NCBI RefSeq assembly: GCF_013185065.1
Contig: NZ_JAAVTO010000023.1
Span: 1-39,797, forward strand
Source: Adlercreutzia sp. ZJ473
GTDB lineage: Bacteria > Actinomycetota > Coriobacteriia > Coriobacteriales > Eggerthellaceae
Length of the DNA stretch: 39,797 nucleotides
Reading direction: 5' to 3'
In this document: positions 1,450 to 20,080 of the stretch, one piece after another
Position numbering within the stretch: the stretch's first letter is position 1
How the letters are laid out: each line of letters opens with the position of its first letter
Position numbers and translations under genes: made by a program
Notes under the pieces: generated by a model
Databases searched by the model: none
Told to the model about the DNA's origin: nothing
The model's input: the letters and a program-made list of their open reading frames with translations, nothing else

Positions 1450-1513
1450 ACTGTCACGCTCAAAGTGAGCCTAGGATTACGAACGAGAACGAGCAAGAGG
1501 AAGCACTGCCCTT

Positions 1514-2785
1514 ATGCCTGACCAGACTCAACCCACGTCCGCGCCGACGGGCGCGAGCGCCCCAGACGCCCCGGGCGCCGCATCTGCGGCGACACCTGAG
1601 CCAGCGACCGCCGCGGCGCCCGACGGCCCGCAGCGCGAGACGCCGTTTCGCTCCGTCGCCGTCATCGGCCTCGGCCTCATCGGCGCGTCGTTCGCCGCGG
1701 CCGTGCGCGCCGCCTACCCCGACGTCACCGTGTTCGGCGTCGACGTCGACGGGCGCACCTGCGTGGTGGCCGAGGAGCGCGCGTGGGCCACGCGCGCCAC
1801 GCGTCCCGACGACCCCGCGTTCGAGCAGTTCATCCGCACGTCCTGCGACCTCGCGGTCATCGCCACGCCGGTTGCCGCCGTCGACGACTACCTGCGCCGC
1901 CTCGCCGCGTGGGACTTCCGCGGCGTGCTCACCGACACCGTCTCCACCAAGGCGCACATCCTCGAGGCTGCCGCAGGCATCCTGCCCGCGCCGCAGAACT
2001 ACGTGCCGGGCCACCCCATGGCCGGCTCCGAGCACAACGGCATCGACGGCGCTCGCAGCGACCTGTTCAAGGGCGCGAACTGGATCCTCTGCCCCGACGA
2101 GCAGACCGTCCCCGAGCACTTCCAGAAGCTCCACGAGCTCATCACGGGCGGCCTCGAGGCGCGCGTGGTGTCGCTGCGCCGCGAGGAGCACGACCGCGCC
2201 GTGGCCATCGTGAGCCACGTGCCGCACATGGTGGCGTCCTCGCTCGTGAACCTGGCGTGCCGTCACGCCGACGACTCCCAGGCCCTCATGCGCCTGGCCG
2301 CGGGCGGCTTCAAGGACACCACGCGCATCGCCGCGGGCTCGCCGAAGCTGTGGTGCGGCATCGCGTTCGACAACGCCGAGGCGCTCTCGGACGGGCTCGC
2401 CGAGATGCAGGGCATCATCGGATCGTTCGCCACGGCGCTTGCGGAGGGCGACCGCGAGGGCTTCACGCGCCTGCTCGCGGAGGCGTCCGACGCGCGCCGC
2501 GCGCTGCCGGCGGCCTGGGTGCCCTCCACCGAGAAGCTGCTCGAGGTGCGCATCCCCATGGTCAACCGCACCGGCGTGGTGGCCGAGGTGACCACCATCG
2601 CCAGCTCGGTCGGGTGCAACATCCAGTCCATCGACATAGACCACATCTCCGAGGGCAATGCCGTGCTCTCCCTCATCCTCACCGACGAAGGCGATATCGG
2701 CCAGCTCTCGTTCCAGCTGATCACCGCTGGTTTCTCGGTATCGTTCAGTCCCTTGAGCCCGAAGGAGCACGCGCATGTCGACTAA
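1514..2785 (+). CDS. tyrA: Prephenate dehydrogenase with C-terminal ACT domain
   Basis: Oxidative decarboxylation of prephenate to 4-hydroxyphenylpyruvate in tyrosine synthesis. The Rossmann motif GLGLIG is at residues ~52-57, the family motif GHPMAGSEHNGIDGA near 166-180, and an ACT regulatory domain begins near residue 345 (RIPMVNRTGVVAEVTTI), consistent with tyrosine feedback control. The protein has 423 residues and an Ala/Pro/Thr-rich, probably disordered N-terminal extension of ~43 residues before the Rossmann fold. ATG 1514 has GAGGAAG at 1497-1503. The gene overlaps aroA by 11 bp, so the two shikimate-pathway genes are likely translationally coupled. Confidence 0.93.
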   Translation: MPDQTQPTSAPTGASAPDAPGAASAATPEPATAAAPDGPQRETPFRSVAVIGLGLIGASFAAAVRAAYPDVTVFGVDVDGRTCVVAEERAWATRATRPDDPAFEQFIRTSCDLAVIATPVAAVDDYLRRLAAWDFRGVLTDTVSTKAHILEAAAGILPAPQNYVPGHPMAGSEHNGIDGARSDLFKGANWILCPDEQTVPEHFQKLHELITGGLEARVVSLRREEHDRAVAIVSHVPHMVASSLVNLACRHADDSQALMRLAAGGFKDTTRIAAGSPKLWCGIAFDNAEALSDGLAEMQGIIGSFATALAEGDREGFTRLLAEASDARRALPAAWVPSTEKLLEVRIPMVNRTGVVAEVTTIASSVGCNIQSIDIDHISEGNAVLSLILTDEGDIGQLSFQLITAGFSVSFSPLSPKEHAHVD

Positions 2786-13632: not shown

Positions 13633-14637
13633 ATGAAGGTTGCGGTTATCGGCGCGGGGTCGTGGGGCACGGCGCTCTCCCAGGTGCTCGCGACGAACGG
13701 GCACGACGTGGCGCTGTGGGCGCGCAACCCCGCGGTGGTCGCGGGCGTGAACGAGCAGCACAGAAACCCGCGCTACCTGACGGACTCCGCGCTCTCGCCG
13801 CGCGTGCGCGCGACGCTCTCCTACGCCGACGCGCTCGCCGACGCGCGCGCCGTGGTGGTGGTCACGCCCTCGCACATCATGCGCAGCGTGGGAGCCGAGC
13901 TCGCCGGGCTCGTCGCGCCCGAGACCCCCGTCGTCATCTGCTCGAAGGGCGTCGAGGAGAAGACTGGCATGCTGCCCATCGCCGTCCTCGCCGACGAGGT
14001 GGGCAACCCCGCGCGCATGGCCGTGCTCTCCGGCCCCAACCACGCCGAGGAGATCATCTGCGGGAAGCCTGCCGCCACGGTCATCGCGAGCACGTCGGAG
14101 GCGACGGCGGTGCTCTTCCGCGACCTGTTCGCCACGGACACCTTCCGCACCTACACGTCGTCCGACGCGGCGGGCGTGGAGCTCTGCGCGGCGTTCAAGA
14201 ACGTGATCGCCATCGCCGTGGGCATCTCCTACGGGCTGGGCTACGGCGACAACACCGCGTCGCTTCTGATCACGCGCGGGCTCGCCGAGATGAGCCGCAT
14301 GGTGGTGGCCTGCGGCGGCGAGGCGATCACGTGCATGGGGCTCGCGGGCGCGGGCGACATGGTGGCCACGTGCATGTCGAAGCACTCGCGCAACCGCCGC
14401 TTCGGCGAGGACTACGTGGCGCGCGGCCGCACGCTCGACGACTTCGCCGCCGACACGCACATGGTGGTGGAGGGAGCGCTCGCGTGCAAGACGCTCGAGG
14501 TGCTCTCGGAGCGCCATCACGTGGAGCTGCCCATCACCGACACGGTGCGCGAGATCGTCTGGAAGGGGGCCGACGCGGCCACCGCCGCGCGCCTTCTCGC
14601 CGACCGCCCGCTGACCACGGAGTTCTACGGGCTGTAG
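13633..14637 (+). CDS. gpsA: Glycerol-3-phosphate dehydrogenase [NAD(P)+]
   Basis: Reduces dihydroxyacetone phosphate to sn-glycerol-3-phosphate for phospholipids. The N-terminal Rossmann motif GAGSWGTAL (residues ~7-15) is followed by LSGPNHAEEI, the catalytic-lysine region AAFKNVIAIAVGI, and GLAGAGDMVATC. The 334-residue length is typical. It begins 15 nt after plsY with GGGAGTTGAG upstream of ATG 13633. It ends just before the repeat-bearing 14640-14835 gap. Confidence 0.96.
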   Translation: MKVAVIGAGSWGTALSQVLATNGHDVALWARNPAVVAGVNEQHRNPRYLTDSALSPRVRATLSYADALADARAVVVVTPSHIMRSVGAELAGLVAPETPVVICSKGVEEKTGMLPIAVLADEVGNPARMAVLSGPNHAEEIICGKPAATVIASTSEATAVLFRDLFATDTFRTYTSSDAAGVELCAAFKNVIAIAVGISYGLGYGDNTASLLITRGLAEMSRMVVACGGEAITCMGLAGAGDMVATCMSKHSRNRRFGEDYVARGRTLDDFAADTHMVVEGALACKTLEVLSERHHVELPITDTVREIVWKGADAATAARLLADRPLTTEFYGL

Positions 14638-14645
14638 GTTTTGCC

Positions 14646-14695
14646 GCTGCGAAGGGCCGGGGCGGAACTGGCCGACGCTGCGAAGGGCCGGGGCG
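14646..14695 (+). repeat. Direct repeat pair downstream of gpsA
   Basis: GCTGCGAAGGGCCGGGGCG occurs at 14646-14664 and again at 14677-14695, a 31-bp period; the second copy runs into the 118-bp element that follows. GCGAAGGGC can pair with GCCCTTCTCGC downstream, so the region may fold as a terminator-like structure lacking a T-run. Confidence 0.65.
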
Positions 14696-14790
14696 TCCCA
14701 GCCCTTCTCGCCCTACGTGCTCGTCGCGCACGAAGTACGCTTCCTCGCGCTTTCGCGGCAATTCGGGGCGTCCCAGCCCTTCTCGCTGAC
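14673..14790 (-). repeat. 118-bp intergenic element, copy A
   Basis: Read on the minus strand it begins GTCAGCGAG (14790-14782), has the central GCGTACTTCG (14740-14731) and ends GCAGCGTCG (14681-14673). Copy B at 19106-19223 has the same length, ends and core with an otherwise different sequence. Inside copy A a 22-bp direct repeat beginning GGGGCGTCCC occurs at 14690-14711 and 14765-14786. It lies between the converging gpsA and alkyltransferase-like genes. Confidence 0.7.
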
Positions 14791-14835
14791 GTTGCCGATT
14801 ACGTGAGGGAAGAGGGCTCGCGCTTTGGGCGCCCG

Positions 14836-15327
14836 TTACGCGTGCCTTCGCTCCAGCTCGAGGAACGCGGCGCGCAGCTGGGCGCCGCGGTCGGCGCCGG
14901 TGGGGCGGCCGTTGGCGCCCACCACGCGGTGCGCGGGGACGATCACCGCGAGCGGGTTTCTTCGCACGGCGGCCCCGACCATGCGGTAGGCCTCGGGCTG
15001 GCCGATGGCCTCGGCGATGTCGCGGTTGGTGCGCGTCTGCCCGTAGGGGATGGCCTCGATGGCGCGCCACACCTTCACCTGGAAGTCGCTCCCCTCGAGC
15101 ACGGCGGGCACGTCGAAGGAGGTGCGCTTGCCGGCGAAGAACTCGAGCAGCTGGGTCGAGCAGGCGTTCGTCGCCTCGGCAGGCCGCCGCTCGCCGTCCA
15201 GGCGCACGTCGCCGAGCGCCACGGCGCAGACGGCGCCAGCGCGCTCGGCGATGGTGACGGGCCCGTACGGCGTGGGGTAGACGTAGTAGGTGAGCTTGTC
15301 GCGGGGGGCTGCTGCGAAATGGGCCAT
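14836..15327 (-). CDS. Alkyltransferase-like protein lacking the catalytic Cys
   Basis: The fold is that of O6-methylguanine-DNA methyltransferase (Ogt/MGMT): an N-terminal domain (residues ~12-80), then FQVKVWRAIEAIPYGQTRT, AYRMVGAAVRRNP and the active-site region VIVPAHRVVG. The acceptor Cys of PCHR is replaced by Ala at residue ~132; the codon is clearly GCG. The DNA-flipping Arg is kept (~R115). Such ATL proteins bind alkylated guanine and flag it for nucleotide excision repair. At 163 residues it is longer than many ATLs because the N-terminal domain is retained. ATG 15327 has GAAAGGAC upstream; ATG 15351 would include that site. Confidence 0.85.
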   Translation of the reverse strand: MAHFAAAPRDKLTYYVYPTPYGPVTIAERAGAVCAVALGDVRLDGERRPAEATNACSTQLLEFFAGKRTSFDVPAVLEGSDFQVKVWRAIEAIPYGQTRTNRDIAEAIGQPEAYRMVGAAVRRNPLAVIVPAHRVVGANGRPTGADRGAQLRAAFLELERRHA

Positions 15328-15377
15328 GCGGCGTCCTTTCAGGTGAAGCATGCGGCCATTATACGGCAGCTTCGCCG

Positions 15378-16652
15378 CTACGCCGAGATGACCCGCTGGT
15401 ACAGCGCCTCGAGGCGCACGACGAACTTCGACTGGGCGTAGCGCTCGAACACGCTCTCCGCGATGCGCTCCCGGCGCAGGGGCGCTGCGGCCGTGCGGTC
15501 GAGCTCGCCCACGATGGCGCGCGCGAGGGCCTCGTCATCGTCGACGTCGACGAGCGTGCCGCATTCCGGCGTGACGAACTCGGGCAGGCCGCCTTGGTTC
15601 GTCGCCACGACGGGCAGCCCGCACGCCATGGCCTCGAGCGCCACCAGGCCGAACGGCTCGCGCCGCGACGGCATGGCGAACAGGTCGGCCGCGTTGTAGA
15701 GCCTGCGCAGGCTGTCCTGCAGCTGATGTCCCAGGAAGTACGTGCGCGAGAGCCCCAGATCGGCGTGCAGGCGCTCGAGCGCCTCGCGCTCCTCGCCGCT
15801 GCCGGCGAGCAGGGTGACGACGTCGGGGTGCTCGCGCTCGTAGCGCGCGGCGGCGCGCAGCAGCACGTCGACGCCCTTGAAGTTGGTGAGCTTCCCTGCG
15901 AACAGCACGACGCGCTCTCCCTGGCAGGGAACGTGGTGCTCCTTGAGCAGCGAGGCGCGGTCGACGTCCTCGCGGTAGAAGACGTCCTCGTTGTAGCCGT
16001 TCAGCAGCAGCACCATCTTCTCGGCTGCGGCGGGGATGGTCGACACGGTGTCCTCGTAGTTGTCCTTCGAGATGGCGATGATGCTGTGGCACAAGCGCAC
16101 CGTCTCGTCGGCGAGCTCGTGGAAGCGCGGCCACTTGCGGTAGCCCATCATGTCGGTGCCGTGAGCTGTGACGATGGTGGGCACGCCGGTCTTCGCGGCC
16201 ACGTTGGCGAGCAGCCACACGTGCTGGGCGTGGATGATGTCGGGCTCGAACTCGCGCACGGCGGCGCTGACGGCTGCGGTGAACGCCGTCAGGTAGCGCT
16301 CGAGCTGGTCGTCGTCCAGGTCGTCGAACGTCGTCAGGCTGCGCGGGTGGGTGGTGAAGCAGGGGAAGTTGAACGGCAGCGGGCTCGTCGGGCTGCTGCC
16401 GTCGCCTGCCGCCGGCTTGCCGGCGAGCGCGTCGTTGGCGGCTGGGTCGCCAGCCAGCGCGTGCTGCCCGCCTTCGGCGTCGAAGTAGACCGGGCGCAGC
16501 GAAACCCCGTCGAGCGGTGCCGGAACGCGGTTCTCGGGGAACACGATGCAGACGTCGTGCCCGCGCTTGGCGAGGTGCTGCGCGGTGTTCATGGTGTACG
16601 TGCCGCTTCCCGACCCTTCGAGCGGAAAGTGGTTGACCAGGAGAATCTTCAT
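15378..16652 (-). CDS. Glycosyltransferase family 4 protein
   Basis: A GT-B fold glycosyltransferase: the N-terminal motif MKILLVNHFPLEGSGSGTYT is typical of GT4, the C-terminal half has KLTNFKGVDVLLRAA, and the nucleotide-sugar motif EPFGLVALE (EX7E) is present. It probably transfers a sugar to a lipid or other glycan acceptor; donor and acceptor cannot be read from sequence. ATG 16652 has GGAGG 6 nt upstream; the frame is open further 5' without a better start. Residues ~65-84 are a tandem duplication of a 10-residue unit (ALAGDPAAND / ALAGKPAAGD). The converging end is ~50 bp from the alkyltransferase-like gene's start. Confidence 0.88.
   Translation of the reverse strand: MKILLVNHFPLEGSGSGTYTMNTAQHLAKRGHDVCIVFPENRVPAPLDGVSLRPVYFDAEGGQHALAGDPAANDALAGKPAAGDGSSPTSPLPFNFPCFTTHPRSLTTFDDLDDDQLERYLTAFTAAVSAAVREFEPDIIHAQHVWLLANVAAKTGVPTIVTAHGTDMMGYRKWPRFHELADETVRLCHSIIAISKDNYEDTVSTIPAAAEKMVLLLNGYNEDVFYREDVDRASLLKEHHVPCQGERVVLFAGKLTNFKGVDVLLRAAARYEREHPDVVTLLAGSGEEREALERLHADLGLSRTYFLGHQLQDSLRRLYNAADLFAMPSRREPFGLVALEAMACGLPVVATNQGGLPEFVTPECGTLVDVDDDEALARAIVGELDRTAAAPLRRERIAESVFERYAQSKFVVRLEALYQRVISA
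16401..16460 (-). repeat. 30-bp tandem duplication in the glycosyltransferase gene
   Basis: Two adjacent 30-bp units encode ALAGDPAAND and ALAGKPAAGD (8 of 10 residues identical). They sit in a loop between N-terminal strands, an Ala/Gly/Pro-rich region absent from the GT4 core. Confidence 0.65.
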
Positions 16653-16829
16653 GGGGGCCTCCAATGCGTGCGAGACGATGGCGGACGGGCACGTGCGCCG
16701 CGTCCAATGCACCATTGTACCGCATGAGCCCCCCATCCGTCGCTCACCTGCGCACACGCGCTTCCGCCAGAGGGGGCCGGAGGTCGAAGAAGGCCAAGGT
16801 CCGCGTCCGATGGCTTGGCTTCCTTGCGT

Positions 16830-16887
16830 ATTCGCGAATTGTGGAGGAGCAATAACTCGGAACCTCGTCGCGTTGCTGCGCTAGAAT
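16830..16887 (+). promoter_or_regulatory. Palindrome and candidate -10 upstream of rpe
   Basis: ATTCGCGAAT (16830-16839) is a perfect 10-bp palindrome. TAGAAT (16882-16887) is a good -10 about 38 bp before the rpe start; no strong -35 is seen at the usual distance. The region separates divergent genes, so the palindrome could serve either. Confidence 0.35.
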
Positions 16888-16925
16888 AGGCGCGGTGCAT
16901 ACATCCGCGAGTGCAAGGACATTCC

Positions 16926-17648
16926 ATGTTTCAACCAGTGAAGATCGCCCCCTCCATCCTGTCCGCCAACTTCATGAGCTTCCAGGCCGACATCGACCTG
17001 ATCGAGCGGGCGGGCGCAGGGTACGTGCACTACGACGTGATCGACGGGCACTTCGCCCCGAACCTCACGGTGGGCATCCCCGTGCTCAAGCAGCTGGTGA
17101 AGTCGACGAGCCTGCCCGTTGACGTGCACCTCATGATCGACAACCCGGAGCGCGAGCTGCCGTGGTTCCTCGACGTGCTCCAAGGCGCCGCCGACCCGAC
17201 GGCGTGCGTCGTCACCGTGCACGCCGAGGCGCTCTACGGCCCTCAGCTCGCACGTGCCGTCGAGGTCATCCACGCGGCGGGCTGCAAGGCCGCCGTGGCG
17301 CTGAAGCCGTGCACGCCGGTCGCGGTGCTGGCCCCGGTCATCGCCGAGCTCGAGATGGTGCTCGTGATGAGCGTCGAGCCGGGGTTCTCGGGGCAGAGCT
17401 ACATCGAGGGGTCGGACGCGAAGGTGGCCGAGGTGGTGGCCCTCGCGCGCGCGGCGGGCGCGAGCCCGCTCATCGAGGTGGACGGCGGCGTCGGCGTGGC
17501 CACGGCCCCGCTTCTGGCGGCTGCGGGCGCTGACGTGCTCGTGTGCGGAAACGCCGTGTTCGCGGCCGAGGACCCGGCGGCGGCGCTCATGCGCATCGAG
17601 CAGGCGGCGGACGAGGCGCGCGAGGCCACTCTCGCCGCGCAGGCATAG
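16926..17648 (+). CDS. rpe: Ribulose-phosphate 3-epimerase
   Basis: Interconverts ribulose-5-phosphate and xylulose-5-phosphate in the pentose phosphate pathway. TIM-barrel motifs: KIAPSILSANF, HYDVIDGHFAPNLTVG, DVHLMIDNPE, SVEPGFSGQSYI and EVDGGVG, giving the metal-binding His/Asp set. ATG 16926 has AAGGA 7 nt upstream; GTG 16911 in frame is less likely. The 240-residue product ends with a short acidic/Ala-rich helix slightly beyond the usual ~220. Confidence 0.95.
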   Translation: MFQPVKIAPSILSANFMSFQADIDLIERAGAGYVHYDVIDGHFAPNLTVGIPVLKQLVKSTSLPVDVHLMIDNPERELPWFLDVLQGAADPTACVVTVHAEALYGPQLARAVEVIHAAGCKAAVALKPCTPVAVLAPVIAELEMVLVMSVEPGFSGQSYIEGSDAKVAEVVALARAAGASPLIEVDGGVGVATAPLLAAAGADVLVCGNAVFAAEDPAAALMRIEQAADEAREATLAAQA

Positions 17649-17765
17649 AGGCGCGCGGCGGGCGCGTGGCGGCGACGGAGGCGCGAACGTGTGACGGGTG
17701 CGGGCGCGACGGCTACGCGCGCGACGGCCGCGCGAGCGCAGGTCAGCCAACGCGTGCCAGCGCGG

Positions 17766-17815
17766 CGCCAGCTGCGCTTCGCCCAAAAACGCGCCGCCAA
17801 CTGCGCTTCGCCCAA
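17766..17815 (+). repeat. Direct repeat upstream of the cysteine desulfurase gene
   Basis: A 21-bp unit ending CTGCGCTTCGCCCAA occurs at 17766-17786 and 17795-17815 with one mismatch (CGCCAG versus CGCCAA), a 29-bp period. It lies ~45 bp before the gene start in the 211-bp gap after rpe. Role unknown. Confidence 0.65.
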
Positions 17816-17859
17816 GCGCGCCGCCCGTTTCACCCACGAAGAAGGAGGCTTGAAGCTGC

Positions 17860-19065
17860 ATGCCAGCTAAGGTAACGGACACCTACGTGTACCTCGACTA
17901 CGCGGCCACCGCACCTCTGTGCGAGGAGGCGGCGCGCGCGATGGAGTCCTATCTCGTGCCGGGGCGCGCGAACCTCGCCGCAGGGGGCAACGCGAACTCG
18001 CTGCACTCCGCGGGGCGCGCGGCGTTCGAGCACATGGAGCGCGCACGCCGCCAGGTGGCGCATGCCCTCGGCGCAACGCGGCCCGACGAGATCGTGTTCA
18101 CCTCGGGGGCTACCGAGGCCGACGACGCGGCGATGCTCGGGCTTTCGCGCGCCGCTGCCGACGCGCGCCGCCGCAGGGGAGCGGGCGGGTTTGCGCCACA
18201 CGTGATCACCACGGCCCTCGAGCACGACGCGGTGCTCGCGCCCGCGCGCCGCTTGGAGGCGGACGGCATGCGCGTGACGTACCTGGCGCCGAACGCGCGC
18301 GGGTTCGTGGAGCCCGCCTCGCTCGAGGCGGCGATCGACGAGGATACGGTGCTCGTGTCGGTGCAGATGGCGAACTCGGAGGTGGGCTCCATCCAGCCGG
18401 TGGCCGAGCTCGCGCGCATCGCGCACGCGCACGGGGCGCTCTTCCATACCGACGCCACGCAGGCGCTCGGCAAAGTGCGCGTCGACGTGGGCGAGCTCGG
18501 CGTCGACGCAGCCTCGTTCTCGGGCCACAAGGTGGGCGGGCCGAAGGGCGTAGGGGCGCTGTACCTGCGCGCCCGCACGCCGTTCGTCCCTCAGCAGCTC
18601 GGCGGCGGGCAGGAGGGCGGCCGACGCAGCGGCACGCAGAACGTGTGCGGCATCGCGGGCTTCGCGGCAGCGGTCACCGCGGCGGTGGAAGGCGCCGAGG
18701 CCGAGGCCGAGCGCCTGCGCGCGCTGCGCGACCAGCTCTACGCGGGCCTCGCGGCGTTCGGGCCCGTGAGCGCCACGGTGCCGGTGGCTCCCGGCGCGCG
18801 CGACTACCTGCCCAACATCGTGCACGTGCTCGTCGACGGCCTCGAGAGCGAGACGCTCATCCTGCGCTTCGACATGATGGGCTTCGGCGTCTCGGGCGGC
18901 AGCGCGTGCTCGTCGCACTCGCTCGAGCCGAGCCACGTCCTGCGCGCCATCGGCGTGCAGGGGGACGCCGCCTACGGTGCCCTGCGCGTGTCGATGGGCC
19001 GCTACACCACACATGAGGACGTCGATGCGTTCCTCGCCGCCGTCCCGAGAGCGCTTGAATGGTAA
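17860..19065 (+). CDS. Cysteine desulfurase (NifS/IscS family)
   Basis: A PLP enzyme removing sulfur from cysteine for Fe-S clusters or thio-modification of tRNA. It opens with VYLDYAATAPL; the PLP-lysine motif SFSGHKVGGPKG is near residue 224 and the catalytic Cys in GSACSSHS near 350. The spacing and SACSSHS motif fit the NifS-like/IscS group. The 401-residue length is typical. AGGAGG (17843-17848) precedes ATG 17860. No iscU or mnmA neighbour is present, so the acceptor is not known. Confidence 0.92.
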   Translation: MPAKVTDTYVYLDYAATAPLCEEAARAMESYLVPGRANLAAGGNANSLHSAGRAAFEHMERARRQVAHALGATRPDEIVFTSGATEADDAAMLGLSRAAADARRRRGAGGFAPHVITTALEHDAVLAPARRLEADGMRVTYLAPNARGFVEPASLEAAIDEDTVLVSVQMANSEVGSIQPVAELARIAHAHGALFHTDATQALGKVRVDVGELGVDAASFSGHKVGGPKGVGALYLRARTPFVPQQLGGGQEGGRRSGTQNVCGIAGFAAAVTAAVEGAEAEAERLRALRDQLYAGLAAFGPVSATVPVAPGARDYLPNIVHVLVDGLESETLILRFDMMGFGVSGGSACSSHSLEPSHVLRAIGVQGDAAYGALRVSMGRYTTHEDVDAFLAAVPRALEW

Positions 19066-19105
19066 AGTAGGCTACGGCAAAGGAAATCACGCAGCATGCG
19101 GAAAA

Positions 19106-19223
19106 GTCAGCGAGGGTGCTTGAGGTGATTCGCATGGCTCCGCCGCGCTGCCAAGCGTACTTCGGTACGCGCCGTGCAGCGCGCAAGGGGGCAGGCGGAC
19201 CGCCTCAAGTGCCCGCAGCGTCG
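19106..19223 (+). repeat. 118-bp intergenic element, copy B (large stem-loop)
   Basis: Begins GTCAGCGAG (19106-19114), has the core GCGTACTTCG (19155-19164) and ends GCAGCGTCG (19215-19223), like copy A. It folds as a long stem: GGGTGCTTGAGG (19114-19125) with CCTCAAGTGCCC (19203-19214), GCGCTGC (19145-19151) with GCAGCGC (19176-19182), and apical GCGTAC-TTCG-GTACGC (19155-19170) with a stable UUCG tetraloop. It could be a structured RNA or mobile repeat in the leader of the next gene. Confidence 0.7.
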
Positions 19224-19227
19224 ACGA

Positions 19228-19257
19228 TTCCGTTTGTTGCGTCAGCAACGAACGGAA
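19228..19257 (+). promoter_or_regulatory. Hairpin abutting the PHP phosphatase start codon
   Basis: TTCCGTT (19228-19234) and GTTGC (19236-19240) pair with GCAAC (19245-19249) and AACGGAA (19251-19257) around a GTCA loop, with one central mismatch. The 3' arm ends one base before ATG 19259, so the place where a ribosome-binding site would sit is inside the stem. Possible translational control. Confidence 0.5.
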
Positions 19258-19258
19258 C

Positions 19259-20080
19259 ATGAGAATGGAACTCATCAACACGCACTGCCACTCCAAGTAC
19301 TGCGGGCATGGGGTCGGCGAGATCGAGGAGTACGCGGCCGCTGCGGAGGCGGCGGGCATCACCACGCTGGCGTTCACCGAGCACTACCCGCTCACGCCGG
19401 CGTTCGACCCCGACGAGTACCTCTCGGTGCTGCCCGAGAACATGCCGCGGTATCTGGAGGCCGTCGAGGCCGCGCGCCGCGCGCATCCGAAGCTCGAGAT
19501 CATCACGGGCGTCGAGATGGACTACCTCGGCGATGACGAGGACCGCGTGATCACCGAGGCTGACCTGGCGCCCTTCACGCTGCGGCTCGGCTCGGTGCAC
19601 TTCGTGGACGCCTGGGCCTTCGATGACCCGGCCCAGCGCGACCGCTGGGAGGAGCCCGGCGCGCCCGACGCCATCTGGAAGCGCTACTTCGAGCTGTGGT
19701 GCGACGCGGCGTCCGACGCGGCGCAGCCCTACCACGTGATGTCGCATCCTGACCTCGCGAAGAAGTTCGCCTACTACCCCAGCTACGACGTGGCGCCCCT
19801 CTACGAGGCGGCGGCCGAGGCAGCGGCGGCCGGCGGGCGCATGATCGAGCTGAACACCTCGGGCAGCTACTACGCCTGCGCCGAGATGTTCCCCGCGCCT
19901 GCGCTCCTGCGGGCGTTCTGCCGCGCAGGCGTCCCCTGCACGGTGGGCACCGACGCGCACGAGCCGGCCAACGTGGCGCGCGACATCGAGCGCGGCTACG
20001 CGGCCCTGTACGAGGCGGGTTACCGGGTCGTCACCGTCCCGACGGCCACGGGCGACCGCCGAACCATTACCATCGAGTAA
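19259..20080 (+). CDS. PHP-family phosphatase, histidinol-phosphatase-like (HisK/HisJ)
   Basis: A PHP-fold metal-dependent phosphoesterase. Metal-ligand motifs: NTHCHSKYCGHG at the N terminus, FTEHYPL, GVEMDYL, GSVHFVDAW, VMSHPDL and GTDAHEP near the C terminus. The 273-residue length and order match histidinol-phosphatase HisK of histidine synthesis, but no his gene is nearby, so another sugar or nucleoside phosphate is possible. ATG 19259 and ATG 19265 are both possible and neither has a clear ribosome-binding site because a hairpin occupies it. Confidence 0.85.
   Translation: MRMELINTHCHSKYCGHGVGEIEEYAAAAEAAGITTLAFTEHYPLTPAFDPDEYLSVLPENMPRYLEAVEAARRAHPKLEIITGVEMDYLGDDEDRVITEADLAPFTLRLGSVHFVDAWAFDDPAQRDRWEEPGAPDAIWKRYFELWCDAASDAAQPYHVMSHPDLAKKFAYYPSYDVAPLYEAAAEAAAAGGRMIELNTSGSYYACAEMFPAPALLRAFCRAGVPCTVGTDAHEPANVARDIERGYAALYEAGYRVVTVPTATGDRRTITIE

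Follow-up and report, generated by a model that had tools for sequence, protein, structure and literature searches.

Two intergenic regions of the analyzed window (the whole stretch of 39,797 nt of Adlercreutzia sp. ZJ473 DNA examined here) share their length, ends and central motif and differ in their arms, which raises the question of what kind of element they represent. The initial annotation took them for copies of a mobile palindromic repeat or else for members of a structured RNA family, to be checked by searching this genome and its relatives for further copies and by building a covariance model. Both regions, designated copies A and B, were present as described: each is 118 bp long, runs from GTCAGCGAG to GCAGCGTCG and carries GCGTACTTCG, at offsets 50 and 49, respectively. 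Copy B folds, as proposed, into a single long stem capped by UUCG on a C-G closing pair (−73.5 kcal/mol, z −4.95, equalled by 0 of 200 shuffles). For copy A the corresponding values are −57.5 kcal/mol and z −2.54 (1 of 200 shuffles equal), and this copy contains a direct repeat of 21 nt. Features of both copies, including a second hairpin (hp2) beside each core, are summarized in Table 1.

Table 1. Features of copies A and B and of the adjoining genes. Positions are those of the window; offsets are counted within the core.
Feature	Position	Strand	Description
NAD-dependent glycerol-3-phosphate dehydrogenase gene	13633..14637	+	Pfam PF01210/PF07479; stop TAG at 14635-14637, gap of 35 nt to copy A
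Copy A hp2	14638..14668	+	Between the gene stop codon and the core; read from sequence; family-typical position
Copy A core hairpin	14673..14790	-	Inner module GAAAGC..GAGGAAG/CGACGA; model R1 88.8 bits, E 1.4e-17
Copy A 21-nt direct repeat	offsets 6 and 81		Left arm repeated inside right arm
Copy A leader side	14791..14810	-	Compared by eye with 41 rows from the genus
Class-V aminotransferase gene	17860..19065	+	Pfam PF00266; same-strand neighbour 5′ of copy B, ending 40 nt from the core
Copy B core hairpin	19106..19223	+	Inner module CCAAG/CGCCG, UUCG apex; model R1 108.4 bits, E 2.7e-22
Copy B hp2	19228..19257	+	TTCCGTTTGTTGC-GTCA-GCAACGAACGGAA, one T-G wobble; same place as hp2 of other copies
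PHP-domain gene	19259..20080	+	Pfam PF02811; 3′ of copy B

Used as DNA queries against their own genome, copies A and B each retrieved five other places (E < 1e-9 each). The covariance model, once built, recognized 25 copies there (E < 1e-6, copies A and B included), and matches were found in 102 of 138 genomes of the same family and in 151 of 396 genomes of the class Coriobacteriia, so that the further copies foreseen at the outset do exist. Chance similarity of two hairpins was excluded by the own-genome matches, the covariance model matches and the pairing statistics presented below. The element reaches at least three families of the class (f1, f4 and f10), and its carriers include the gut genera Gordonibacter and Collinsella as well as Paraeggerthella; 36 of the 138 family genomes (G024, G045 and G080, for example) gave no match, several of those listed being single-contig assemblies. 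Per-genome copy numbers, which range from 1 to 67, are lower bounds, as scoring covered 150 candidates in each genome: with E no higher than 1e-4 there are at least 67, 48, 44, 40, 15 and 13 copies in G029, G065, G052, G062, G028 and G005, respectively. An anchor-based finder reports 21 of the 25 own copies (L094, L100, L101 and L102 were missed), and in the survey of copy context in relatives it also missed L115, L134 and L136. Plasmid and phage sequences, searched with one element query each, gave no match, and carriage by plasmids or phages was dropped as an explanation. A scan of viral contigs yielded 36 stretches, many of which may be chance matches given 18 fixed bases, and the matches listed in a broad contig scan mix true copies with chance ones in other high-GC genomes. 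No earlier description of the hairpin family was found in literature searches, and this family of long DNA hairpins of Coriobacteriia is apparently new to the literature.

The typical unit is composed of a leader, a core of about 118 bp, a spacer of about 5 nt and hp2. The two core ends, of 9 nt each, are nearly fixed. Core length is 114-120 bp across copies, with subtypes of 145 bp (L441-L444, missed by the finder and read by eye) and 184-190 bp; the length survey covered 100 chosen sources and left out the long subtypes L103-L105. The element extends beyond these 118 bp: most copies have a variable hp2 on the GCAGCGTCG side, and many have on the opposite side a lineage-specific leader consisting of a CAGGT-type box and 9-11 nt. 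The unit as a whole is seen in G006, where L433 and L434 have in common about 165 bp made up of hp2, core and leader, with a single base different, while in G008 three identical cores (L430-L432) have flanks that are only 20-33% identical. Identical cores within unrelated flanks indicate that the unit boundaries are defined at the core ends.

Context was analyzed in 141 distinct copies, selected for no more than one anchor mismatch, sufficient flanking sequence and an arm score of 14 or above; since they include orthologous copies from related species, they are not independent events. The 42 nt on the gene side fold at −15 kcal/mol or below in 133 of the 141 copies, as against 17 of 141 shuffled sequences, 6 of 141 leader sides, 33 of 141 segments of coding sequence and 43 of 173 element-free gene ends. 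The idea that hp2 is an ordinary feature of all gene ends was dropped. The pattern GTTNCG..CGNAAC occurs in 76 of 141 copies and in one of 173 called gene ends without the element. The hp2 loop often holds TGA or TAA, and in two copies (L316 and L482) a terminator-like hairpin takes the place of hp2. A strict hp2 scan, which saw none in the window and a single unrelated palindrome over 200 kb of G052, is unusable as a control because it missed both window hp2s and registered none at the three cores of those samples. In copy A, hp2 is rearranged and contains a copy of the core end GCTGCGAAGGGCCGGGGC, and the leader side, read on the minus strand, is possibly a decayed form of the genus leader CAGGTCGTTCGTAAC.

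The proposal that the arms differ by compensatory change was borne out by the alignment. In alignment A2, whose fitting to the model makes pair counts lean towards structure, 97.0% of 3611 arm cells are paired, compared with 69.3% in the shuffled control and 35-57% when partners are slid; two-sided changes are present in 33 of the 35 consensus pairs (974 cells versus 272 shuffled). Copies A and B keep 31 and 34 of these pairs, respectively. The family keeps its fold while its sequence changes, and this covariation could in part stem from template switching inside palindromes. The fold also has a favoured strand: G-T mispairs outnumber A-C ones (259 versus 38, or 122 versus 38 without two wobble columns), and the element strand folds better than its complement in 103 of 104 copies with RNA parameters and in 104 of 104 with DNA parameters. 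A tandem UG/GU is retained in about two thirds of the copies (67 and 70 of 104 cells), UUCG loops occur, as does one GCAA loop (L311), and internal loops have sequences that recur among copies. Rfam covariance models gave no match in the window, and a permissive search of eight loci gave none overlapping a core. A sub-threshold match to mir-312 adjoins one core (L301:1399-1452).

The cores tend to be placed at the ends of genes that run towards them on the opposite strand. Such a gene end lies within 110 nt of the core in 119 of the 141 copies, as called by a simple open-frame and G+C rule; the distance between stop codon and core is 31-46 nt in 87 of these 141, with the small hairpin in between, and 16-19 nt in 20, in all of which the small hairpin encloses the stop. 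No called gene end stands at the expected place in 22 of 141 copies. A same-strand gene ends within 110 nt on the leader side of 67 of the 141, with no peak like that of the stop-codon side: 13 of these ends fall at 0-3 nt, TAA being frequent in leaders, and the other 54 are scattered over 18-103 nt. In the own genome a same-strand gene runs in at 8 of 21 copies. Copy B is exceptional, as the PHP-domain gene begins, rather than ends, at its hp2, and it is therefore no stop-codon case. The genes ahead of the element include housekeeping functions assigned by Pfam, i.e. GAPDH, GreA, the SufB/D core, a carbamoyltransferase and a LeuA-like enzyme, and copies occur behind greA in G000 (by Pfam) and in G028 and G113 (by protein end). 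TGA is rare among stops 25-50 nt from the core (8 of 87 versus 139 of 471 in other genes, p 3e-5); in an earlier count, which took in stops at any distance, TGA made up 15 of 70 (overall p 0.2), with 2 of 30 versus 48 of 181 in the own genus (p 0.019) and 13 of 40 versus 91 of 290 in other genera (p 0.86). Element-free orthologues likewise end mostly in TAG or TAA. The depletion may be a property of the genes rather than a sign of a TA target, and we give the latter idea little weight.

Orientation follows replication in 43 of 45, 38 of 40 and 40-44 of 49 copies in three genomes, the first two of which are single-contig. It is the leading-strand template that contains the better-folding strand, and the lagging-strand template carries the complement of that strand. 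This polarity is stronger than that of called genes (104 of 153 leading in samples of G052 covering 200 kb, with a home-made gene caller; Fisher p 7e-5). Stop-codon anchoring, hp2 and the one-strand pairing bias had no counterpart in the initial annotation.

To follow the element between genomes, 18 own element-bearing gene ends were sought in sister species, and 17 were located in G028 (L084 is absent from this set) and 16 in G029. The finder saw a full core at 6 of 17 and 3 of 16 of them, respectively, one further G029 site being broken by a contig end. At all 17 located G028 sites the two flanks are still together at a single locus and on the same strand, although the element has changed, so that the genes are not cassettes. 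The pairs L103/L399 and L095/L393 are clean filled and empty sites in which the insert starts at the stop codon. Between L098 and L405 the difference matches the core to within 2 bases at either end. Only TA/TAG recurs on both sides at the two clean empty sites, and inspection of the L433/L434 flanks by eye revealed no target duplication. Other differences in the sister species (L403, L385, L397 and L411) look like loss of a core rather than gain, the G028 gpsA locus holds half an element and a repeated gene end, and the small hairpin at L431, L445 and L089 is an inverted copy of the gene end. The original proposal is supported in part. Mobility of the element is well supported, by filled and empty sites and by identical cores at unrelated sites; as to whether the folded strand acts as DNA or as RNA, its placement antisense to gene ends and an orientation linked to replication lean to DNA, an RNA role being less probable.

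We incline, by a little, to the view that the family consists of small non-autonomous mobile DNA elements whose folded single-stranded core is recognized in trans and which enter on the lagging strand at stop codons. The folded core strand, as single-stranded DNA, would be bound by an enzyme supplied in trans, perhaps much as an integrase binds attC or a Y1 transposase binds hairpin ends. New copies would enter the lagging-strand template where a gene that runs in the direction of the fork has its stop codon or, alternatively, would enter older copies with exchange of cores. Profile searches for Y1 transposases and integron integrases in 137 genomes found no transposase or recombinase linked to the element. 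Y1_Tnp (PF01797, E 1e-6) has no match in the carriers G000, G028 and G029, and RAYT mobilisation in the own genus was dropped on this ground; it matches 68 of the 137 genomes, not G052, G062 or G065 among them, and is present in other carriers such as G005, G064, G066, G067 and G068, so a Y1 enzyme may serve part of the family. More tentative, and on balance doubtful, is the idea of a new single-strand recombination system, in which the enzyme would read the 118-bp strand by its ends, internal loops and length, swap whole cores among resident sites and install new copies at stops of genes co-directional with the fork, the stop in hp2 making a landing within the last codons of a gene harmless.

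Several known systems resemble the element in part. REPs and REPINs, as characterized in PMC3733652, are likewise dispersed, extragenic and hairpin-forming, lie mostly 3′ of coding regions and have variable stems with tagged ends, the CGTC kind lacking a dedicated transposase; the main text of that paper does not mention Eggerthella, Coriobacter, Slackia, Gordonibacter or Actinobacteria. However, REPs are 20-40 bp long with stems of 5-13 bp, whereas the Coriobacteriia core has about 118 bp, about 35 consensus pairs, recurring ends on both sides and hp2. Its CGTC lies inside GCAGCGTCG instead of marking the base of a short stem, a core of 114-120 bp differs from the 20-40 bp palindrome tagged with GTAG or CGTC, and the RAYT (Y1) enzyme of GTAG-type REPs matches other carriers but not G000, G028 or G029. 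Insertion of IS200/IS605 elements is not known to cause target duplication. Single-strand hairpin recognition and lagging-strand-linked insertion, both proposed here for the element, are features of these and related elements (IS608, ISDra2 and TnpA-REP), as outlined in PMC6006769. The replication-biased orientation is found in the element too; however, their hairpins, of about 20-25 nt, are much shorter than the core, and the strand logic appears reversed relative to IS608, as the lagging-strand template bears the complement of the better-folding strand. RUP and Correia elements are non-autonomous, intergenic MITEs of 100-200 bp. The enterobacterial RU elements are described in the same terms in PMC2759123. 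Our element differs from such MITEs in that neither a target duplication nor long terminal inverted repeats like those of a known IS were found, and in that its arms vary freely while pairing is kept.

The alternative that the element strand is transcribed, from a same-strand neighbour gene or its own promoter, and that the hairpin acts as RNA (e.g. as an antisense or 3′-end element), with mobility secondary, would account for covariation in which G-U wobbles fall on one strand and a tandem UG/GU is kept, for UUCG and GCAA loops and recurrent internal-loop sequence, and for copies behind greA in different genera. We nevertheless consider it unlikely, as the folding strand is antisense to the adjoining gene, same-strand genes run in at only some of the copies and are mostly scattered, no Rfam match overlaps a core in the window or at the eight loci searched, and the orientation bias exceeds that of called genes. 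Less likely again are polar hairpins adopted by the host at leading-strand gene ends, for transcription-replication coordination, termination or the nucleoid, and spread by conversion. The polarity in the two single-contig genomes, the position behind housekeeping genes and the occurrence across the class agree with such a role, but not the match-free family genomes, the variation in copy number or the few full cores at the sites located in G028.

Palindromes might also be made and kept matched without any trans enzyme, by template switching at stalled forks, dispersal being rare ectopic conversion. The inverted gene-end copies at L431, L445 and L089, the arm of copy A duplicated in direct orientation and the G028 gpsA locus fit this account; its probability seems low to us, since nearly fixed 9-nt ends, a length of 117-118 bp and unpaired bases conserved across families suggest recognition or selection, and the tandem wobble stays imperfect in most copies. 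Relict integron attC sites without an integrase were considered as well. Such sites stand behind a gene, a position that the element shares, and have GTTRRRY/RYYYAAC R boxes, with which the core ends GTCAGCGAG and GCAGCGTCG do not agree by eye. They also resemble the element in their length, which in most sedentary integrons is 120-129 bp, in a fold formed by one strand, in arms that vary yet match and, in sedentary integrons, in a folding strand on the leading-strand template, according to PMC5371416. The element sites, however, are scattered singly through the chromosome, and the integron integrase profile TIGR02249 exceeded its cut-off in 0 of 137 genomes, its weaker matches in 64 genomes being, among those listed, to the C-terminal part only. 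Together with the intact flanks in G028 this excludes integron cassettes and makes the relict origin very improbable.

The small mobile DNA elements that we favour as the reading of this family combine features in an unusual way: shape is conserved over sequence in at least three families, and gene ends are marked with replication polarity. They offer a natural system for studying how enzymes read hairpin shape, how the arms of a palindrome are kept matched and how mobile DNA can reach gene ends without doing harm. In practice, hairpins at the 3′ ends of housekeeping genes may also influence the assembly and annotation of genomes, the ends of transcripts and the typing of strains.

The two intergenic stretches of 118 bp described in the initial annotation are present as claimed, with common 9-nt ends and with GCGTACTTCG near mid-core (offset 50 in copy A, 49 in copy B). 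Copy B indeed forms one long stem capped by a C(UUCG)G apex, and its fold is the stronger (z -4.95 vs -2.54 for copy A). Copy A, located behind gpsA, is rearranged: a 21-nt arm is repeated in direct orientation, and the element end is duplicated into hp2, the second small hairpin found between a gene stop codon and the ~118-bp core. Copy B is atypical in its place, as it precedes a PHP gene.

Coordinates of cores and neighbouring RNA features
Feature	Sequence	Positions	Strand	Remark
Copy A	window	14673-14790	minus	118-bp core
Copy B	window	19106-19223	plus	118-bp core
Core	L099 (own genome)	1501-1618		within a ~520-codon open reading frame
FMN riboswitch	L103	331-494		near element; ordinary
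RNase P RNA	L126	1096-1444		near element; ordinary
TPP riboswitch	L126	2513-2638		near element; ordinary

DNA searches of the own genome with copy A and copy B each retrieved 5 dispersed others (E < 1e-9). RNAalifold predicted 35 pairs for an alignment of 19 copies, and 24 of these show two-sided changes. A covariance model built from the alignment bore out the proposed family: 25 copies were found in the own genome (E < 1e-6), copies A and B among them, and matches in 102 of 138 Eggerthellaceae genomes and 35 of 48 genera (E up to 0.01). Within the class Coriobacteriia 151 of 396 genomes gave matches at E up to 1e-4, families f10 and f4 included, while family f6 showed two weak matches only. 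Per-genome copies in six more deeply searched genomes range from at least 13 to at least 67 (E up to 1e-4). Paraeggerthella, Enteroscipio, Adlercreutzia, Ellagibacter and Collinsella (a member of Coriobacteriia) are among the contig matches listed, intermixed with chance hits from other high-GC genomes; copies from Collinsella and Atopobiaceae reached covariance model E-values of 3e-8 to 3e-12. Of these, L178 and L201 also bear an hp2-like hairpin, and an open frame on the other strand ends at a distance of 45 and 31 nt, respectively. No Rfam family matched a core in the window or in eight loci, and a literature search by titles and abstract openings, with few subscription journals covered, found no prior description of such an element, which is not proof of novelty.

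The arm differences preserve base pairing, as had been supposed. A set of 105 matches aligned to the model (104 distinct), drawn from 100 chosen sources, has 97.0% of cells paired vs 69.3% after shuffling, and two-sided changes occur in 974 cells vs 272; sliding the partner by 1-3 columns reduced pairing to 35-57%. With copies oriented by their conserved ends, mispairs on the GTCAGCGAG strand are G-T in 259 cases vs A-C in 38 (122 vs 38 once the two columns holding a conserved tandem wobble are excluded), although the covariance model permits G-U and perhaps somewhat favours G-T-rich copies. Under RNA parameters the GTCAGCGAG strand also folds better than its complement in 103 of 104 copies, and under DNA parameters in 104 of 104. 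Because of this mispair excess and better folding, constraint appears to act on a single folded strand.

Visual inspection distinguished three kinds of inner module. Modules are mixed: outer arms are alike but the inner part is not in 14 of 3982 pairs, and the reverse holds in 36. One core subtype carries ~68-73 extra bases at one right-arm place, forming three small hairpins (TGATCGG..GCGCCCTCTCGGGCGC..AAACAG-CTGTTT). It was recognised in L103, L104 and L105 (own genome), L407 and L413 (sister species G028), L107 and L158, lying within a core in 7/7 retrieved cases; at the L087 site the insert is present in G028 and missing from the own copy. A 145-bp subtype (L441-L444, genome G052) has ~27 additional bases in the inner helix (GGAAGTCCCCGCAGGGGATACTTCGG).

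Of 141 distinct copies, 119 have an opposite-strand gene whose end lies no more than 110 nt from the GCAGCGTCG end, with stop-to-core distances of 31-46 nt (87 copies), 16-19 nt (20), 2-6 nt (4) and 65-100 nt (8). On the opposite flank, the leader side, a gene end lies within 110 nt in 67 of 141 copies (13 at 0-3 nt, often with TAA inside the leader, and 54 scattered over 18-103 nt). Most copies have hp2 between stop and core, frequently with the pattern GTTNCG...CGNAAC. A 42-nt fold of -15 kcal/mol or lower occurs on the gene side of 133 of 141 copies (controls, each of 141: leader side 6, coding sequence 33, shuffled 17), and an uninterrupted stem of at least 8 in 67 (7, 1 and 0, respectively). 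The small hairpin encloses the stop codon in every one of the 20 copies in the 16-19 nt class, so the last codons of the frame are element sequence; in L089, L431 and L445 the left arm of the hairpin is the coding end of the frame itself. Certain frames of this class may not be real genes. Three loci (L485, L207, L140) lack hp2, with the core directly at the stop codon. Nine scanned proteins of element-marked genes included GAPDH, GreA, a SufB/D-core protein, a carbamoyltransferase, a LeuA-like enzyme, a nucleoside-phosphorylase-superfamily protein and, at copy A, glycerol-3-phosphate dehydrogenase.

In some leaders (L081, L091, L407, L404) the motif CAGGTCGTTCGTAAC, exact or degenerate, is tandemly repeated in an iteron-like manner. 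In L486 (sister species G029) the small hairpin differs from those of the other copies read: it is a near-perfect palindrome rich in A+T, GCGTATATATCGAT-GA-ATCGATATATACGC.

Eighteen own sites were sought in the sister species; G028 yielded 17 of them and G029 yielded 16. Full cores of 116 to 190 bp were detected by the anchor-based finder at 6 of the G028 sites (L401, L415, L413, L391, L389, L407) and at 3 of the G029 sites (L396, L394, L404), a fourth (L402) being interrupted by a contig end. In the clean filled/empty pairs L103/L399 and L095/L393 the insert begins at the stop codon. The L098/L405 pair shares hp2, the G028 site is without a core, and boundaries are defined within 2 bases per end. 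Sites L403, L385, L397 and L411 retain parts and look like losses. At the L099 site, G028 has a decayed core (L409) and none was seen in G029. Behind gpsA the finder located the element in the own genome and G028; in G029 it is interrupted by a contig end, and the finder saw none at the remaining 27 loci read, though one of them, L359, may hold a decayed hp2. Genome G008 contains three identical cores whose 40-nt flanks are 20-33% identical, and thus the core is inserted or exchanged as one unit. Two copies in G006 have ~165 bp in common, including leader and hp2 (one mismatch).

Relative to dnaA, which was located in three single-contig genomes, the core strand runs counter to the replication fork in 43/45 (G052), 38/40 (G062) and 40/49 copies (G065; 44/49 with a fitted terminus), which places the folding strand on the leading-strand template. 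Of the genes called in 20 ten-kb control samples of G052, 104/153 run with the fork, a weaker bias than that of the copies (Fisher p 7e-5). The sole orientation exception checked (L301, G052) follows its gene, the opposite-strand gene end still lying at 35 nt.

The elements have some behaviour in common with REP elements (PMC3733652), IS200/IS605-type ends (PMC6006769) and attC sites (PMC5371416) but, at least in the own genus, lack a tested defining feature of each. The bottom strands of attC sites in sedentary integrons are reported to lie on the leading-strand template (PMC5371416), the same placement as that of the element's folding strand. Over 137 family genomes no integron integrase exceeded the cut-off, while Y1 transposase matches occur in 68, other element carriers included; none was found in the own genome, G028 or G029. 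It is possible that the element strand acts as RNA, since the pairing rules would suit RNA equally well. Our preferred reading is a mobile, non-autonomous element whose single DNA strand is recognised in folded form; it would enter the lagging-strand template at gene ends, and its cores would be exchanged among resident sites. The rearranged arm and copied end of copy A, together with a duplication at the G028 gpsA site, suggest that template switching also shapes element sites.
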